Source of the DNA: Capsaspora owczarzaki ATCC 30864
Taxonomy: Eukaryota > Opisthokonta > Filasterea
Length of the DNA: 64,000 nucleotides
NCBI RefSeq assembly: GCF_000151315.2
Contig: NW_011887294.1
Coordinates: 1,402,601 to 1,466,600, forward strand
Direction of reading: 5' to 3'
The number at the start of each line of letters is the position of its first letter. Position 1 is the first letter of the stretch. Below are positions 20,420-51,469 of the stretch, in pieces. The translations under genes and the position numbers were made by a program. The notes beneath the pieces are model-generated. The model had not been told where the DNA came from. It did not search any database and was given only the letters and a program-made list of their open reading frames with translations.

Positions 20420-21627
20420 TGTATGCGTTCAAGTTGGTTTTTGTTTTTGTTTCAAAAAGACTGAGCTCGCGGCAAAATCCATCAAAATGAAAACAAAAAC
20501 AAAAAAAAGTCTGACTTCATTGATTCAACGCAGACAACATCAAGTGATACATTGCACTGTGTCGATTTGCATCAGGCTGAAACGTCGAGATTATTCCAAG
20601 AAGGGGAAAAAGCAAAAAACGCTGCACAGAAAAACCATTACGCGTGTCTGTTTCCCTTCAACGATCTCGTCGTGCTGCGCTCGACATTGCAGAAATTCTT
20701 ACCTGTCATTGCAGATCGAATACTCTTCCTTTGCTACTGATAACCTAGGTGACTGTACGACCCACAGAGAAACCCGTTACGCGTGTCCGTTTCCCTTCAA
20801 CGATCTCGTCGTGCTGCGCTCGACATTGCAGAAATTCTTGCTTGCCATTGTGCATTGTTCCATTATTCCCTTGCAAGCGTGATTGTAGAGTTTACTGTGC
20901 TCTGCTCTGAGAATTTGATCGATCACCGCTTCATTCCTCATTTTTTTCCCTTTTCTGCTCTTTTCAATCACGTCGCAGCCCGATCCGCTCCTTCCGCCTG
21001 GCAGTCTTCTCCGCCAGCATTCCCACGCCATCCATCTGAACGCCGTTGCCCGTATTGTGTCTCTTGTTGAGCATCGTGCGCAGCTCCGACATCACCAGCA
21101 CCAGCAGCACCAGCAGTCACTGAATCTGTCATCAAATGAAGGTGAGGTTTGTTTCGTGATTTTCCCCTCCCCCCGCAGCTCCTTGTCACTTGTCCCTCCT
21201 TTCTATTGCTTGCTTGCTTGCTTTGCTGTTTGTCTGCCTTTTCATTGGGTTTGGTGGTGAGTGTGCTGGCAGGTGGTTTGATCCTGTCTAGCCAGCTGTG
21301 TGCTCGTGGTTTCCTAATGAGTCCCACCTGCCTCCGTTGGGGCGAACGCACAACTTCCCCCAACAATCACCACCACCAGCAAGCAAGCAAGCAAAAGGCC
21401 TGAAGATAGCATCAGACTGTTGCAATCCGCATTGAGAAGCAGCGCAATGGCGTCAGAGTGAAGTTGAAAAGAAGAATCAATGAAGAAGTGTGATGCCCAA
21501 TTCAAGCAGCGGGCATGCGGGCTCATCGTCCGCCGCTACTCGACTCGCCACACACCATGCGGGTACAAATGTTTGAGAATGAGAAATTCACAAAAAGCAA
21601 ACGAAGGGAGCGTGCGTCGATTGCACT
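20420..21627. other. Divergent intergenic region containing a direct repeat
   Basis: Separates the leftward HD-domain gene from the rightward TMEM86 gene. It contains an imperfect 87-nt direct repeat (listed separately), A-rich stretches near 20490-20510 and 20600-20640, and small poly-C/T islands. ATGAAG/GTGAGG at 21136-21147 looks like a possible short first exon of the TMEM86 gene, but this cannot be supported further. Confidence 0.5.
20625..20849. repeat. Imperfect 87-nt direct repeat, 138 nt apart
   Basis: Copy 1 (about 20625-20711) and copy 2 (about 20763-20849) share CACAGA, then ACGCGTGT(C/T)(C/T)GTTTCCC, then a stretch identical through TCGACATTGCAGAAATTCTT. Only a handful of differences are seen. 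The 51 nt between the copies is unrelated. No protein or RNA identity was recognised. Confidence 0.85.
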
Positions 21628-22476
21628 GTGATGCAGTTCAAGTTGCGGTTTTTTGGGGGGGTTTTTTGCGCACTCTGGACCTCTCAGATTCAGACGGTCA
21701 AAATTCTAACGCTCTTTGTTTTGCTTTTCGCCTCTTGTTCGACTCCGGACATTTCCCAGAAAACTTTGGCATCCATTCTGTGCCTGGCCTCGGCGGCCCT
21801 CTTCACGGGCATCCTCTGCGAGCGCGACTTTAACATGCCGCTGGGAATTGCTCCGCTCATCACTGGAGAGCCAAACAAAATCTCCTCCAGCGACGTCTAT
21901 GCCGTGTTCAAGCTCCTGCCCATGTTCTTCTTGCTCGTGGTTGTGTACACCTCTGGTCTCGGCCAGCGCTACAATTTGCTCGTCTTTTTCGGACTGATCG
22001 CATCCTCGTTTGGCGACTACTTCCTGGTCTACCAGAACGTTGATAAGATGTACTTTGTCTATGGCATGGCCTCGTTTGGCCTGGCCCATCTCTTGTATGT
22101 GCTTGCGCTCGGCTTCCGTCCGCTCCGCCTCGGCCTGGCCGTCATTCCGTTCTCGCTTGGCATTGCCAGCCAGTACAACTTGATGCTTGGCACCTTGCCC
22201 GAAAAGCTCGTCATTCCTGTCGGCATCTACCACTTGCTGATTGCCAGCATGATTTGGCGTGCGCTTGCTCGCAAGTCTGTTCCTCATGCCGACGGAACTA
22301 GCCCCAGCTTGGCCGCATATGGCGCCCTGCTTTTCGGCGTCTCGGACTCTCTGCTTGGCTTGAACAAATTCCGCTACCCCTTTGTCCAGGCACATCTCGT
22401 TGTGATGGTCACCTACTATGCAGCACAATTCCTGATTGCGCACTCCGTTGCCAAGCGTAAAGCCAAGACAGCCTGA
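21628..22476 (+). CDS. TMEM86/YhhN family membrane protein, probable lysoplasmalogenase
   Basis: About 282 residues in one open exon. Roughly eight hydrophobic segments are present. Family blocks are VFKLLPMFFLLVVVYTSGLG, SSFGDYFLVYQ, YFVYGMASFGLAHLLYVLA, FGVSDSLLGLNKF and VMVTYYAAQFLIA, in the order of TMEM86A/B. TMEM86B hydrolyses the vinyl-ether bond of lysoplasmalogens; acidic residues in the GD and SD motifs are retained. The start is uncertain: homology begins near QKTLASILCL, and CATTTCCCAG at about 21756-21765 could be a splice acceptor from an upstream exon. An AATAAA begins at the last base of the stop codon. It converges with the phosphotyrosine-docking receptor gene 207 bp away. 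Confidence 0.82.
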   Translation: MMQFKLRFFGGVFCALWTSQIQTVKILTLFVLLFASCSTPDISQKTLASILCLASAALFTGILCERDFNMPLGIAPLITGEPNKISSSDVYAVFKLLPMFFLLVVVYTSGLGQRYNLLVFFGLIASSFGDYFLVYQNVDKMYFVYGMASFGLAHLLYVLALGFRPLRLGLAVIPFSLGIASQYNLMLGTLPEKLVIPVGIYHLLIASMIWRALARKSVPHADGTSPSLAAYGALLFGVSDSLLGLNKFRYPFVQAHLVVMVTYYAAQFLIAHSVAKRKAKTA

Positions 22477-22683: not shown

Positions 22684-25546
22684 TCAGACAGGAGAAAATG
22701 TGCTGGGCTGGGCGTCGTCCGGCATGTGATACACATCCTCACCACCAGCCATCTCGCTATTATCTGGGAGAGCATACGTGTCCTTTTGATCGACAGAAAG
22801 CGCGTTCACAGCCAGGTTCATGCTCGTCGGTTCCGCCGGTTGCCGCATGGGCTCGTTGTAGATTGCCTGATCCTGGTCTGGTTTCTTTGCGGCGGTGTAC
22901 TCTGCATAGATGGCCTCGCTTTCGACTCCAGGCACAGTGTCGTACGCAGCGTAGGCACGCTTGGGCGCTGGCTGCGGATCGTAGTACGTATCCAGCGATT
23001 GGTAATGCGCTGCGTATGTGTCACTTGGTTGAACGTAGTTGTCCTCTCCCTTGTCAGGGAGTGGTCGCTGCATATGCCCATCACCGACAGATTGGTACAA
23101 GTCGCCTTCGCCAGGAACAACATAATTGTCGTAAGTGCTCAATCCAGCTTGCATGGATATCGCGTTGGCTGATGTCCTCGAGCCGTGAGAGCGATTGAGG
23201 GCAACAAGAGTGACGACTCCCGGGTGATGCTTGCGCATGGGCGGACGGGTTCGACGGCGACGCAGGAGCACTACGGCTACCAGAACTAGAAGCAGGAAAC
23301 ACGCGCCTCCCAGACCGCCAGCAACGGCGGCAATGGGGCTCCCGGATGCAGCGTTTGATTGCGCGTTGCTATCGTTGCCAGCGCGCTTGCTAGAAGGCGC
23401 GAGACTGGTGGGAGTCGCCGATTCCGACAGCCTTGTGGAGGACGCCAAAGCGGCCGATGCGACCGAGGCAGCGGAAGCCGACGATTCAGCGACTGCCAAT
23501 GCCGCAGATGCAGATGAAACGGAGGCAGCGGAATCAGATGAAACAGAGGCAGCGGAAGCAGATGAAACAGAGGCCGCAGCGGCAGACGACACCGATGCAA
23601 CTGATTCGGCAGAGACAGCAGCAGCAGCAGACGAGGACGATTCAGATGCAACGGACGCGATGGAAGCAAGACGAACGGAAGCATCTAGCGCAGACATGAC
23701 AGAGGAAACGGACGCGGCAAAAGCAGCGGCGGATGAGGAAGCTGCAACTGCAGAGGCTGATGCTGCAGAAGCAGAAGACGCGGACACTGCGGAAACCGAG
23801 GACACGGAAGCGACAGATGTCGCAGAAGCAGTCGCTGGCACACATAAAGTCGCCCCGTCAATGTTTGTAAACAGATCCATCCCGACGGTGCACACAGTGC
23901 ACTGCGAACCGCTGGTGCAGGCTGCGCAGTTTTGAGGACAGGCTGTACATTGCAGTTGGTCAATCGCAAAGTAAGGACATGGAGTGCACAACGACACAGC
24001 CGAAACACAGGAAACGCGACTTACAAAAGCAGACTCCATCACCGGCATACGAGCCGAAAGAGCACGCGCTCTTGCAAACACCAGACTCGGCCACCAGCTT
24101 GTTTGTGCATTGAGTGCACGTGGCATAATCCTTGCTGCATGCCGTGCACGAGCCGGAGCGGCAAGGCACCAGACCACCGTCGGCATCCGGTCCAAACCCG
24201 TTCGTACCAGCGGAAGGCAAGCACTGTGTCTGACCCGCCCATGTGGTGACCAGGGTGAATTTGGGTGTGCAATCCGTGCACCGACCTTGATTCATTTTGC
24301 GACATCCGTCTGGCATGTCTGTTCGCACTGCAACACGAAAAAGAGAAACAAAAAACAAAAAAAAAAAAAAAAAAAAAAGTCGGATGTTAGCACAGAAGAT
24401 GTACCACTACGATGGGCATCTCTTGCAAAAGCACATACTCATTGGGGTACATCCGTTGGACCCGAGCCTGAAATTTGGATAACACTTTGTGCAGCGACTA
24501 GAGGAGCATTCTTTGCAGTTTGCCGGGCAAGCTGACCGTCACAAGCAGAAAAAAAATAACGTCGCCAGCAGAACAAAAACAGATGAGTTTTTTTTTCAGG
24601 AGGTGTGCCATGTGCATGGGCAGACTTACATTGAAGTTTTGCTTGGCCAACATAGAAACCATCGCCGGCAAATTCGTCCGAGTCGAAGCACCCTTCCAAA
24701 AATGTTCCAGCTCCAGGTGGCTTCATCGGCAGAAACCCGCTTGTGGTGCTACAGGCAGAGCACTCTGTTGAGCTTGCACATTTTGTGCAAAAGTCGATGC
24801 CTTCACCGCAAGATGCTGCGATAAAAACACCAAAACAAAAACAAAAACAAAAAAAAACGAACAAATGTAGCACTTTTTGCCAAAACAAAAGAATTTTCCA
24901 GATCCGTCGATTTCAACCATCATGAGTTGTGTGGTGGACTGCTCCCAGTCCAACCCTTCAACGTGTCAATGCTGATGTTGCCCAACTCTGTCTGCGGCAA
25001 TGGAGCATGGCCGAGGATTCGGCACAATGACGGAATGGGACATGTTTTTGACGTGTTATTTTTGGGAGGGGCTTGCATTTTGTCGCTGTTTTTGAGTTGT
25101 ATTTTACATCAACCAACGCGGCCCTGAGGACCAAGTTCCACGATGGAATCCGCAGTGTCAGAGTTGTACAGCATGTGGTGAACGTAGTCTGAAAGCAGCG
25201 ACCCCTCCAGAACGACAAAACGCCAGAGAAAAGAGGGCATCGGCGTGGGGTTGGTCAAGAACCCAAAGCATCTAATGGAAAAAACCGCAACACATGCTCT
25301 ATCACGATCGCGGGTTTGTGTCAGTCTCTCGCTTTCTCCCCCCCCCTCCTCCATCCCCTTGGTCTTTCGCTTTTGATGGCTTCGTCGAGACGTGAAGTAG
25401 AAGTGCATGGCACAGCGGGCAAACGAGTGGGTGGCGGGGACGGTTACCGGGAGAAGGAGGCAAAGGAGAACAAAAACGCGCTTACCCGCAACGAGACATG
25501 GAAAAGTCGCAACCACAAAAAGCAGCAAGAGCCGGGTCGCGATCAT
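22684..25546 (-). CDS. Cys-rich single-pass receptor with a multi-YxxP phosphotyrosine-docking tail
   Basis: Five exons: 25486-25546, 24630-24815, 24439-24531, 24025-24327 and 22684-23942, every junction in phase 1, about 633 residues. Exon 1 is a signal peptide (MIATRLLLLFVVATFPCLVA). Exons 2-5 encode Cys-rich furin/GFR-like repeats (FCTKCASSTECSAC, SCPANCKEC, CSKDYATCTQC, SCPQNCAACTSGSQC). A stalk of about 170 residues, almost all Ala, Ser and Val, follows, then a transmembrane helix (IAAVAGGLGGACFLLLVLVA) and a basic stop-transfer RRRRTR. The tail of about 180 residues has no kinase but many tyrosines in docking contexts: NYVVPG, NYVQPS, TYYDPQ, YDTVPG, IYAEY, IYNEP, TYALPD, VYHMPD. The symmetric phase-1 exons are typical of shuffled extracellular modules. 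No named family was recognised; the ligand is unknown. Confidence 0.8.
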
Positions 25547-26146: not shown

Positions 26147-27182
26147 ATGCTCAAGACCACGAATCATGTCTGGATGTCGTCTCTCGCACTGCTCCTGTTC
26201 ACGCTAGCCACCCGTACTCTCGCCGCCAACCAGGCGCAAGATCCTACGCATGCAAGCGCGACCTCATCAAGGGGCTCGCCGGTGTCGGTGCAAGTGCTCT
26301 CGCTGCTTCTGGTGCTCGGCTACACCTTCGGGACGGAGCGGTATGCTCGCCATGGCAGCAAGACCGCTCGAGCGGTGTCTGACAATTCATCGCGCTCCAC
26401 TGTGATTACAATCGTCTCGGGTAAGGCATATGTTGTGTTGTCGATCTCGAACGAGACAAACGAGCGGCAAGCGCGGGGGAGTTGCCCGAGTTTACAAAAC
26501 AAAAAACAACGAGAGCGTGCTCAGACTTCTTTCTCATGCATCTCGGTTGTCACAGTTTGAAGATGATAATAATGCTAACTTGATTGCGGGGGGATGATCA
26601 GCCACCATTTTCCCGTTTGCAGGGGCTCTGAGCCTATTCGACCCACTGGCAATGCCGCCGCTTCCAACTGTCGTCGTGGCATTTTTATTTGCAGTCGAAC
26701 TCTTTGCCATCTGGCTTCGTTACCATTCTATGCACATGTACGTATCCACTCCTGTTGTCCTTGACTTGCGTTGCAGTGAGGGATGGAGGGCATTGCTGCT
26801 TGATGTGCCGGACCACCCAATCCGAAATCATGATTTTGTTTTTCCAAGAGGATGAACGCAACTCACCTGACCCCATGCTGGTCACAGTCTGGGCATCTAC
26901 TTTACACGCTCCCTCAAGGTCCAGGAAGGTCAGCGCGTGATTCAATCGGGCCCGTACGCGTACATTCGCCATCCGGGCTACTTGGCGAATCTGCTCGCAT
27001 TTTTCGCCCATGCCGTGTTGGTTTCCCAAAACTATGGCGTCTTTGCGATTGTCTTTTGCGCCATGGCAGTTGTCTGGTCGGTGCGCATCGATCTTGAAGA
27101 GCGCATGCTTGTGTCTGAGCTGGGGGCGGCGTATGTCGCCTACCAGCAGCGAACAAAGCGGCTGATTCCGTTTGTTTTGTAA
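26147..27182 (+). CDS. Isoprenylcysteine carboxyl methyltransferase-like membrane enzyme
   Basis: Three exons: 26147-26420, 26623-26737 and 26888-27182, about 227 residues; phases 1 and 2 match. The N-terminus (SSLALLLFTLATRTLAA) is hydrophobic, and further membrane segments occur in exons 1-3. The C-terminal catalytic block is diagnostic: RVIQSGPYAYIRHPGY, then RIDLEERMLVSELGAAYVAY and TKRLIPFVL. The RHP motif and the paired Glu (EE) bind S-adenosylmethionine in the ICMT/PEMT superfamily. Substrate could be a prenylated CaaX protein or a small molecule; many short ICMT-like enzymes are not true Ste14. The start is the first ATG of the conserved frame; an upstream exon is possible. Confidence 0.82.
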
Positions 27183-49100: not shown

Positions 49101-51469
49101 CAACGGGACTTGCACTGACTCTTCCCATCGCCACATCCCCGTCTCACGCTGTCACGTCATACACAATTAGTGTGAGCGACAACCATTTCCTCGATCCCGT
49201 GTCTCCAGCAACCTTTGAGCTCATCCCAACCACTTCCGGTCCTTCCTCGTACATTATTCGCACTTGGGCAACCGCGCTGTTGCCAAATCGGCCCTACACC
49301 TTCACGGCCATCGCGCACACGGCTGTTTCATCAACGCCTGTTGGAGAAGCGCTCGTAATCACATACCAAACACTCCCCGCACCAGCGCGCTTCTCAGCCC
49401 CTTTGCATATCTTCTTCCCGAGCGGCAAGACAGTGAAAATTTCGTGGAGCGTACCGTCCGATCGAGATTCAAACGGCCAAGTCACGGGGTACGGCGTGAC
49501 TTTTGACAATCACCCGCTTGTGCTTCTGGATGCGACGGAAACCGAGTATTCGCCCGACGTGACGCTGGTCAAAGGGCGCACTTACCAGGTGACGGTGGTA
49601 TGCTTCTCGGCCGCTCAAGGTCAAACATTCACCTCCGATCCTGTCACTGCCGCCGTCACGGCGCCAGCCAATGACTCAGCGTCCGGCCCCGCAACCGGAG
49701 CCATTGCCGCTGTTGTGGGTAGTGTACTTGGAGTGTTGTTGCTCGTTCTGCTCATCATCTTCCTTGTTCGTCGTCGTCGCAACAAGTCTTCGCCGAATCT
49801 CGCTCGACGCAAAGGCAAGAAGGGGTCCGTTGACGACGAAAGGTGTGTTGCTGCTAATCAACCCATTCGACTATGCTTTGAGAACCAAAAAACAAAATGG
49901 GAGGGGGGTGCTTTTACTTTTGCGCGTCTCTGACCTCACACCTCTTTTTCGATTCCCTGCTGTTGGGGTATATGCGGAACAATTTGGTTAGTTCGACAAT
50001 GGAGATGAACCGAAATGACTTGACCTACACCTACATTGGCTCTGATCCGCTCTATGCTGCCGTGAACATGGTGCCAAACTCCCAACAAACCTTCTCCGAC
50101 TATGCTGCTCCGGGCGTCTACTTTAACGAAGGCCATGGAAAATCGGGCGCAAAATCCGCAAAGTCGGCCGAAAGTCACTATGCCTACGCTGCAGCTGTGC
50201 AGCAAGTTTATGCCGTTGCGCACGAATCTCCCTACACGACCTCCACCAGCAGCATGAATCGCGCCGACATGGAGTTTGGCTCGGTTCTTGGCCAAGGCGA
50301 GTTTGGCCGCGTTGTGCAAGCGTCTGCTCCCGCTTGGTGGCTGGGCTTGCAAAACGCTAGCGGCAAGTCCCCCAACGACAGGATTACGGTGGCCGTGAAG
50401 AGCGTGAAACAGGGAGCCTCCGACAAGCAAATAGCCGACTTTGACGCTGAGGGTGACATGATGAAGCAATTCAATCACATTAGCGTGGTGCGCGTCCTCG
50501 CTTCATTTACGGATGTGCACCCCCATTTGCTGGTCTTGGAGCTTTTGCCGTATGGCGACCTGCGAGGACTCTTGCAACGCTGCGCTATGCTCGATCCGCC
50601 CGTACTGCCAACCTCCACGGAGATTGCGCACATCTGTGCTCAGGTCGCCTCTGGCATGGCCTATCTTGCTCGAATTCGATTCGTTCACCGTGATCTGGCA
50701 GCCCGAAATTGCTTGGTCGCTGGAGACCTTGTTGTCAAAATTGCAGACTTTGGCCTGTCTCGCTCTCTTTCCGAAGAGAAGGACTACTACAGGGTCCAGA
50801 ACAAGAGCAAGCTGCCGGTTAAGGTGAGAAGGGGAGTTCAAACCCGCTGTTTGAAGTCTGTGGCTTGTTGCGGCCAATGTCTCAATGCTGGTGGTGCGGG
50901 GGAGATTTTTTTGTTGTTGTCGTTAATTGTTTGCTTGCATCTGGGACGTTTCATTTCTGGTAGTGGATGGCGCCAGAATCCCTGATGTACCGTAAATTCT
51001 CCACCGCGAGCGATGTTTGGTCGTTTGGTAGGTGCACGGGCGATATGCTCCATGCTGTGTTTGCAAAAACGTGACGACTGACTTGTGCTACAGGTGTTGT
51101 GTGCTGGGAGGTTGCTACAAGTGGCAGCAGCCCGTACGGAAATATGCCAGGCAAGGATGTTCCCGCTTACGTCGAGGCGGGAAATCGCTTGACTCGGCCC
51201 GAAACATGCCCTTCAGAAATGTACGTCAGTGCGCTTTGCAGGTGGACAAGGGGGATGCATCCTTTGATGACATTTGTTCTCAATTGTATTCGTTGGTGAT
51301 TTTTAGTTGGGAGCTTGTCCAGACATGCTGGTGTTGGGAGCCAGCCGCACGTGCATCTTTCGAATCTCTGTCTTCAAGTCTTCGTGCAATGGTCGGTGCT
51401 GAAGACCCCGTCAGAGATCTCGGTGCAATGGCGTCTTCCGCAAAAGAGGTTAAAGCATCCGACAACTAA
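46183..51469 (+). CDS. Receptor tyrosine kinase with an FN3-repeat ectodomain
   Basis: Six exons: 46183-46297, 46914-49842, 49992-50823, 50964-51027, 51094-51220 and 51307-51469, about 1409 residues. Exon 1 is a signal peptide ending FSSAHA. Exon 2 (about 976 residues) is a run of roughly nine fibronectin type III domains, with repeated Y-S-L/F-x-V motifs and Trp in the B strand, then a membrane helix ([20 protein letters not shown]) and RRRRNK. The juxtamembrane part is tyrosine-dense ([14 protein letters not shown]). The kinase has [31 protein letters not shown], paired Tyr [19 protein letters not shown] and DVWSFG, a complete catalytic set of animal RTK type. The first intron's acceptor (AAAAAAAAG) is weak and least certain. 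It converges with KAT2, 108 bp between stops. Confidence 0.88.

Follow-up and report, generated by a model that had tools for sequence, protein, structure and literature searches.

A kinase-less, YxxP-tailed membrane receptor of Capsaspora owczarzaki as a candidate phosphotyrosine docking platform

Docking proteins such as ErbB3 and those of the LAT and FRS2 types carry a tyrosine-rich docking segment at the membrane and have little or no catalytic activity of their own. Closer to the locus described here are published pre-metazoan membrane proteins, S. rosetta PTSG_05573, 12435 and 12436 and M. brevicollis A9VAL3 and A9V449, which combine an ectodomain, a membrane helix and several cytosolic YxxP motifs (PMC5043372; here and below, cited papers are represented by excerpts). 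No kinase is mentioned for them in the excerpts, A9V449 has a Cys-rich, growth-factor-receptor-like ectodomain, and three of the five carry a C-terminal SH2-like domain. The same source reports that the SH2 domain of M. brevicollis crka1 binds pYxxP peptides (pY, phosphotyrosine), two of them from PTSG_05573, and proposes that membrane proteins specific to pre-metazoans connect Crk to the membrane. Here we analyze a 64,000-nucleotide stretch of Capsaspora owczarzaki ATCC 30864 (contig NW_011887294.1, positions 1,402,601 to 1,466,600; hereafter the window), whose minus strand is predicted to encode a receptor of this kind, Cys-rich outside the membrane like A9V449 and with no SH2-like domain found by Pfam. 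We favor, with a probability of roughly 0.63, the reading that it is a single-pass, kinase-less surface protein acting as a phosphotyrosine docking platform, whose tail would be phosphorylated and bound by SH2 proteins.

The cytoplasmic tail (22687..23262, minus strand; amino acids 442-633, 192 residues counted from RRRR) is expected to be disordered and contains 15 tyrosines; 4 lie elsewhere in the protein. Six of the 15 tail tyrosines lie in strict YxxP motifs, all on the minus strand: Y488 (DNYVVP, 23113..23124), Y517 (DNYVQP, 23026..23037), Y534 (DTYYDP, 22975..22986), Y576 (AIYNEP, 22849..22860), Y604 (DTYALP, 22765..22776) and Y619 (DVYHMP, 22720..22731), with Asp at -2 in five of the six. 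An earlier, sequence-only reading of this locus had counted eight or more YxxP- or pY-like sites; the motifs that it named (YVVP, YVQP, YNEP, YALP, YHMP, YYDP, YDTV and YAEY) all lie in the reading frame of the last exon, but strict YxxP occurs only six times. Shuffled tails contained 1.46 YxxP on average and attained six in 28 of 20,000 shuffles, while an acidic residue (Asp or Glu) at most three positions before the tyrosine, present at 10 of the 15 sites, was matched in 59 of 5,000. Among the 14 proline offsets examined around tyrosine, from -6 to +8, only +3 is enriched (6 vs. 1.4 expected, attained in 0 of 500 shuffles); the remaining 13 were each attained by at least 73 of 500, the next after +3 being +6, with 73. 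The +3 proline of this tail is non-random.

These numbers bear on two simpler accounts of the tail. A disordered segment rich in Pro, Asp and Tyr might contain YxxP by chance, and the 28 shuffles that attain the observed count leave some room for it; with enrichment at +3 alone, we consider this composition artefact highly improbable. A sorting function, in which Yxx-hydrophobic AP2 signals would direct the endocytosis of an adhesin or nutrient receptor with no phosphotyrosine role, could draw on the three Yxx[LIV] motifs of the tail and on other kinase-less tails of the genome, described below, that are rich in YxxV, YxxL and YxxI instead of YxxP. The excess in the receptor tail is of Pro at +3, which does not fit AP2 signals, and 15 tyrosines exceed what sorting would need; we regard this explanation as improbable.

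The sequence-only reading had also proposed that the receptor lacks a catalytic domain, and this is borne out. The whole protein has no Pfam match above the cut-off (the sole match, DUF2970, is sub-threshold at E 0.014), and tblastn of three receptor tyrosine kinase (RTK) kinase regions against the whole window matched only a plus-strand RTK at 50.27-51.39 kb, with which a genome-wide tyrosine kinase profile search agrees among the matches listed. The cytoplasmic kinase domain expected of an RTK is lacking, as Pfam finds none and the stop at 22684 directly ends the tail. We also considered splicing to a downstream kinase and rejected such a fusion because tblastn finds no kinase on the minus strand, the receptor's own, in the window. 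The plus-strand RTK gene (49966-51394) has, by eye, a membrane helix and a Tyr-rich juxtamembrane segment; its kinase exons are matched by Pfam (PK_Tyr_Ser-Thr, E 1.5e-45) and by tblastn.

The receptor is not a one-off. In a search of the genome (27.46 Mb in 29 contigs, cited as C1, C2 and so on), the tail alone matched itself and a single other sequence, at E 1.56, and the ectodomain matched, among others beyond its own gene, a second kinase-less receptor on C8 (E 0.01). The membrane helix and tail of this C8 receptor (L049, C8:937199), used as the query, gave 48 matches, 30 of which were taken on as loci, 12 with a kinase-like stretch and 18 with an in-frame membrane helix and no kinase-like stretch; 16 of the latter 18 have at least 4 tail tyrosines. 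L072 and L078 were left out of the kinase-less set for a kinase-like stretch within the locus. In three of the 16 loci, L062 (C9:788365), L069 (C2:1965976) and L070 (C9:973852), a membrane receptor has one SH3 domain in its cytoplasmic tail; because that domain accounts for some or most of the few tyrosines there, these loci were excluded from the count. Thirteen kinase-less Tyr-tail loci remain, the receptor and the C8 query included. Four extra regions, hand-picked from 29 matches for the lack of a listed kinase match in their vicinity, all gave Tyr tails with no kinase in the stretch read (C19:45501, C19:41120, C29:8532 and C4:1267122, with 7, 7, 11 and 7 tyrosines, respectively). This brings the kinase-less membrane proteins with at least 4 tail tyrosines to 17, that is, 16 besides the receptor; the figure is not a census, and kinase absence in the other 16 was assessed inside the stretch read, beyond which a far 3' exon could lie.

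The tails of this group are YxxP-rich in part, with nine motifs in the C8 receptor, seven each at C9:729658 and C5:1384421 and six at C1:3508337. Their ectodomains vary: among the 10 proteins scanned, Sushi was found in L061, Calx-beta in L058, a furin-like domain in L063 and an M60 peptidase in the SH3-tailed L062, and the remainder had no match above the cut-off. The receptor has the layout of an Ala/Ser-stalk family of its own genome (C19:45501, C19:41120 and C4:1267122), in which the Cys-rich unit was read in L082 only; there it is likewise followed by an Ala/Ser stalk, a membrane helix, RRRR and a Tyr tail with no kinase. In L079 (C19:45501) and L080 (C19:41120), an Ala/Ser stalk, membrane helix and Tyr tail are present, and the stretches read begin inside the stalk. 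These two neighbors are separated by about 4 kb, differ little in the sequence of their tails (synonymous divergence, dS, 0.09) and are probably a recent tandem duplication. L049 and L054 (C5:1384421) are kinase-less paralogues with common YxxP, YAQVNK and YEELP tail motifs, and the L049 tail carries a long Asn run. Five related kinase-less tails are under purifying selection, with ratios of nonsynonymous to synonymous divergence (dN/dS) of 0.21-0.46 in all 10 pairs.

We then compared the +3 position across the group, a set found through similarity to a YxxP-rich query. In 16 kinase-less tails, those with SH3 included, Pro occurs at +3 43 times vs. 12.6 expected (0 of 500 shuffles). Removal of the query, the receptor and the three SH3 tails leaves 11 tails with 27 vs. 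8.7 (0 of 2,000), every other Pro offset being attained by at least 136 of 2,000 shuffles. With L054, the paralogue of the query, also removed, the remaining 10 tails still give 20 vs. 6.7 (0 of 2,000), a further argument against chance composition. When L051 and L061 are taken out as well, 8 tails give 7 vs. 4.4, attained in 299 of 2,000 shuffles, a result in which the composition account finds its other support. Because the excess vanishes without the YxxP-rich L051 and L061, YxxP characterizes a subset of the kinase-less group, not all of it.

The nearest look-alikes of the receptor are these other kinase-less receptors and the RTK juxtamembranes of the same genome. The latter resemble it in having a membrane helix, a basic stretch and a Tyr-rich segment; they differ in being followed by a kinase and in the residues around tyrosine, where Ala is the most frequent at +3 and Pro is in excess at -2. 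Juxtamembranes were obtained from 16 of 30 loci found by their kinase (the other 14 had no membrane helix in the open frame within 330 amino acids), and several of the 16 are near-copies of each other. They contain 117 tyrosines in 1997 amino acids, 2 to 17 each. At +3, Ala (38) is followed by Pro (16 vs. 8.9 expected, 10 of 500 shuffles); other offsets with a surplus of Pro are -2 (28 vs. 9.0, 0 of 500) and +5 (16 vs. 8.4, 3 of 500). Two RTK copies on one contig, L060 (C5:741455) and L065 (C5:916003), are nearly identical in the tail stretch listed.

This resemblance raises the alternative of an ErbB3-like, kinase-less partner, in which the receptor would be a subunit of an active RTK complex, perhaps with the RTK at C15:18-20 kb, its tail lending docking sites. 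Docking itself would proceed as in the favored reading, and the difference would lie in the receptor not acting independently. The receptor ectodomain matches that RTK (E 0.0012 and 0.0026), whose juxtamembrane of 186 amino acids has 11 tyrosines and 4 YxxP, and the membrane helix and tail of the receptor have as their top match the helix and juxtamembrane of an RTK at C3:1979669 (E 5.2e-6), with part of the score supplied by the helix and RRRR. Cys spacing alone, however, can yield such ectodomain scores, which are equaled by a 3386-amino-acid open frame on C4 with no listed kinase (E 0.0019), and the +3 residue that prevails in the 16 juxtamembranes is Ala rather than Pro. We therefore consider a partnership of this type rather unlikely, although less so than the sorting and composition accounts.

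For a docking platform, the genome contains candidate writers and readers, with layouts inferred from neighboring domain coordinates. Genome-wide profile searches gave 34 SH2, 101 SH3 and 176 tyrosine kinase matches, the last with exon pieces counted singly and a profile that also takes Ser/Thr kinases. The putative writers are many RTK kinase exons and two cytosolic types. An Abl-like SH3-SH2-kinase locus lies at C12:367-368 kb, with SH3 just upstream and kinase just downstream of an SH2 (C12:367448) whose top PDB match is ABL1 (1.2e-25). A Src-like SH3-SH2-kinase locus lies at C3:586.7-587.6 kb; the top scores of its SH2 are with SHP-2 and RASA1 chains, ahead of Src-family kinases. The putative readers are a Crk-like SH2-SH3 gene (SH2 at C1:594536, top PDB match CRK-II, 6.8e-26, SH3 downstream), an SH3-SH3-SH3-SH2 open frame of Nck layout (C3:106.4-107.6 kb), whose SH2 has its best scores with RASA1 and SHP-1/SHP-2 chains and scores lower with NCK1, and an SH3-SH2-SH3 locus of Grb2 layout (C17:166.4-168.1 kb).

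In the mechanism that we propose for the docking platform, the Cys-rich ectodomain on its Ala/Ser stalk would sense or cluster, and clustering would carry the tail to a tyrosine kinase encoded by another gene, either an RTK or a cytosolic kinase of the Src/Abl type. The repeated D-x-Y-x-x-P sites would be phosphorylated in trans and then recruit SH2 proteins with a preference for pYxxP, in the first place Crk, then Nck-like adaptors and Abl itself. Serial weak sites may provide avidity, as proposed for substrates of the p130Cas type. A related sequence of events has been reported in M. brevicollis, where both the kinase of an RTK and MbSrc1 phosphorylate a segment of that RTK's tail, to which the SH2 of MbSrc1 then binds (PMC3584944).

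Several observations weigh against this reading. The residue at +1 is V, V, Y, A or H in five of the six YxxP sites of the receptor, whereas animal Crk ligands commonly have an acidic or amide residue there. No clear similarity to the C4, C2, C9 and C11 tails emerged, and the +3 excess is lost in the set of 8 tails described above. For the processive step, the excerpted report on MbAbl2 describes no gain in phosphorylation when peptides carried SH2-ligand sequences (PMC4474922).

The gene model behind these analyses has five predicted exons on the minus strand, from an ATG at 25546 to a TGA ending at 22684, exactly the span given in the sequence-only reading, and a product of 633 amino acids. 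Its four introns are all GT-AG and all phase 1, the splice sites being consensus matches. Exon 1 (25486..25546; donor GTAAGC at 25485) carries the start Met and a hydrophobic N-terminus (MIATRLLLLFVVATFPCLVA) that, by eye, resembles a signal peptide. The Cys-rich ectodomain begins in exon 2 (24630..24815; AG acceptor, GTAAGT donor, phase 1) and continues through exon 3 (24439..24531; AG acceptor, GTATGT donor, phase 1) and exon 4 (24025..24327), for which an alternative AG acceptor 9 nt further on (24319) would keep the frame. Exon 5 (22684..23942) contains the last Cys-rich unit, an Ala/Ser-rich extracellular stalk (23335..23838, about amino acids 250-417), the membrane helix followed by RRRR (23263..23334, amino acids 418-441; 19-residue hydropathy 2.67), the entire cytoplasmic tail and the stop. 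The ectodomain has 30 Cys between amino acids 23 and 248. The putative signal peptide, Cys-rich ectodomain and membrane helix are thus joined to the Tyr tail in one predicted model, as had been suggested. With ten open frames from RTK loci of this genome as the training set, the codon-usage score is higher for the model frame than for the other two sense frames in every exon and also in the tail alone, with a narrow lead for exons 1-3 and a score for exon 3 that is still negative. Other isoforms of the receptor may exist, given the exon-skipping network reported for C. owczarzaki tyrosine kinase genes (PMC3870316).

Weak matches of the ectodomain to bacterial beta-lactamase inhibitory protein in PDB (best E 0.0036) were judged to be chance. 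Directly beyond the receptor stop, and convergent with the receptor gene, is a YhhN-family gene (21586-22473, plus strand), which we take to be of the TMEM86 type. On the other side lies an exon of an ICMT-like methyltransferase (26871-27179, plus strand), divergent from the receptor gene.

Among known systems, the likeness to ErbB3, LAT and FRS2 is one of layout: unlike ErbB3, the receptor has no kinase-like domain, and unlike LAT and FRS2, it has a large ectodomain. It shares multiple YxxP motifs, six in its case, with the substrate domain of p130Cas/BCAR1, and six YxxP repeats are given for sponge and Trichoplax BCAR1 in the excerpted literature. Membership in the p130Cas/BCAR1 family was rejected: the receptor spans the membrane, its N-terminus is signal-peptide-like with no SH3 or other domain found by Pfam, and its C-terminus is the YxxP tail itself, with no FAT-like domain. 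The transmembrane docking hub that the sequence-only reading had envisaged, with motifs of the p130Cas type, is retained as the best reading, but not as a p130Cas relative.

The kind of protein is already published, with Capsaspora included by name: in the excerpts of PMC5043372, a first hidden Markov model (HMM) returned Capsaspora matches without YxxP, and a second, chained HMM returned Capsaspora membrane proteins, a subset of them with YxxP repeats, among which the present receptor may be. A literature search for Capsaspora receptors with a Tyr tail and no kinase, or for choanoflagellate tails resembling immunoreceptor tyrosine-based activation motifs, with subscription journals mostly uncovered, found no other paper on the group. 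New here are the exact gene model, the additional receptors without a kinase, the comparison of +3 statistics with RTK juxtamembranes, and the selection test.

A broader proposal, which we put forward tentatively and at less than even odds, is that phosphotyrosine signaling in this lineage was divided before animals arose, some receptors bearing the enzyme and others the docking platform. Some 17 or more kinase-less receptors would carry Tyr cassettes of differing +3 codes (YxxP for Crk/Abl-type and Yxx[VIL] for other SH2 domains), common to or drawn from RTK juxtamembranes, in a manner like that of animal immune receptors and Cas/LAT scaffolds but separately evolved. In C. owczarzaki, crka is reported and BCAR1 is reported absent (PMC5043372). 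If the tails are phosphorylated and bound by SH2 domains, this unicellular relative of animals, lacking p130Cas, uses in its place YxxP cassettes carried on receptors and would offer a natural receptor set for reading +3 specificity against the SH2 repertoire of one organism. The kinase-less group suggests that RTK counts alone miss part of the signaling system.
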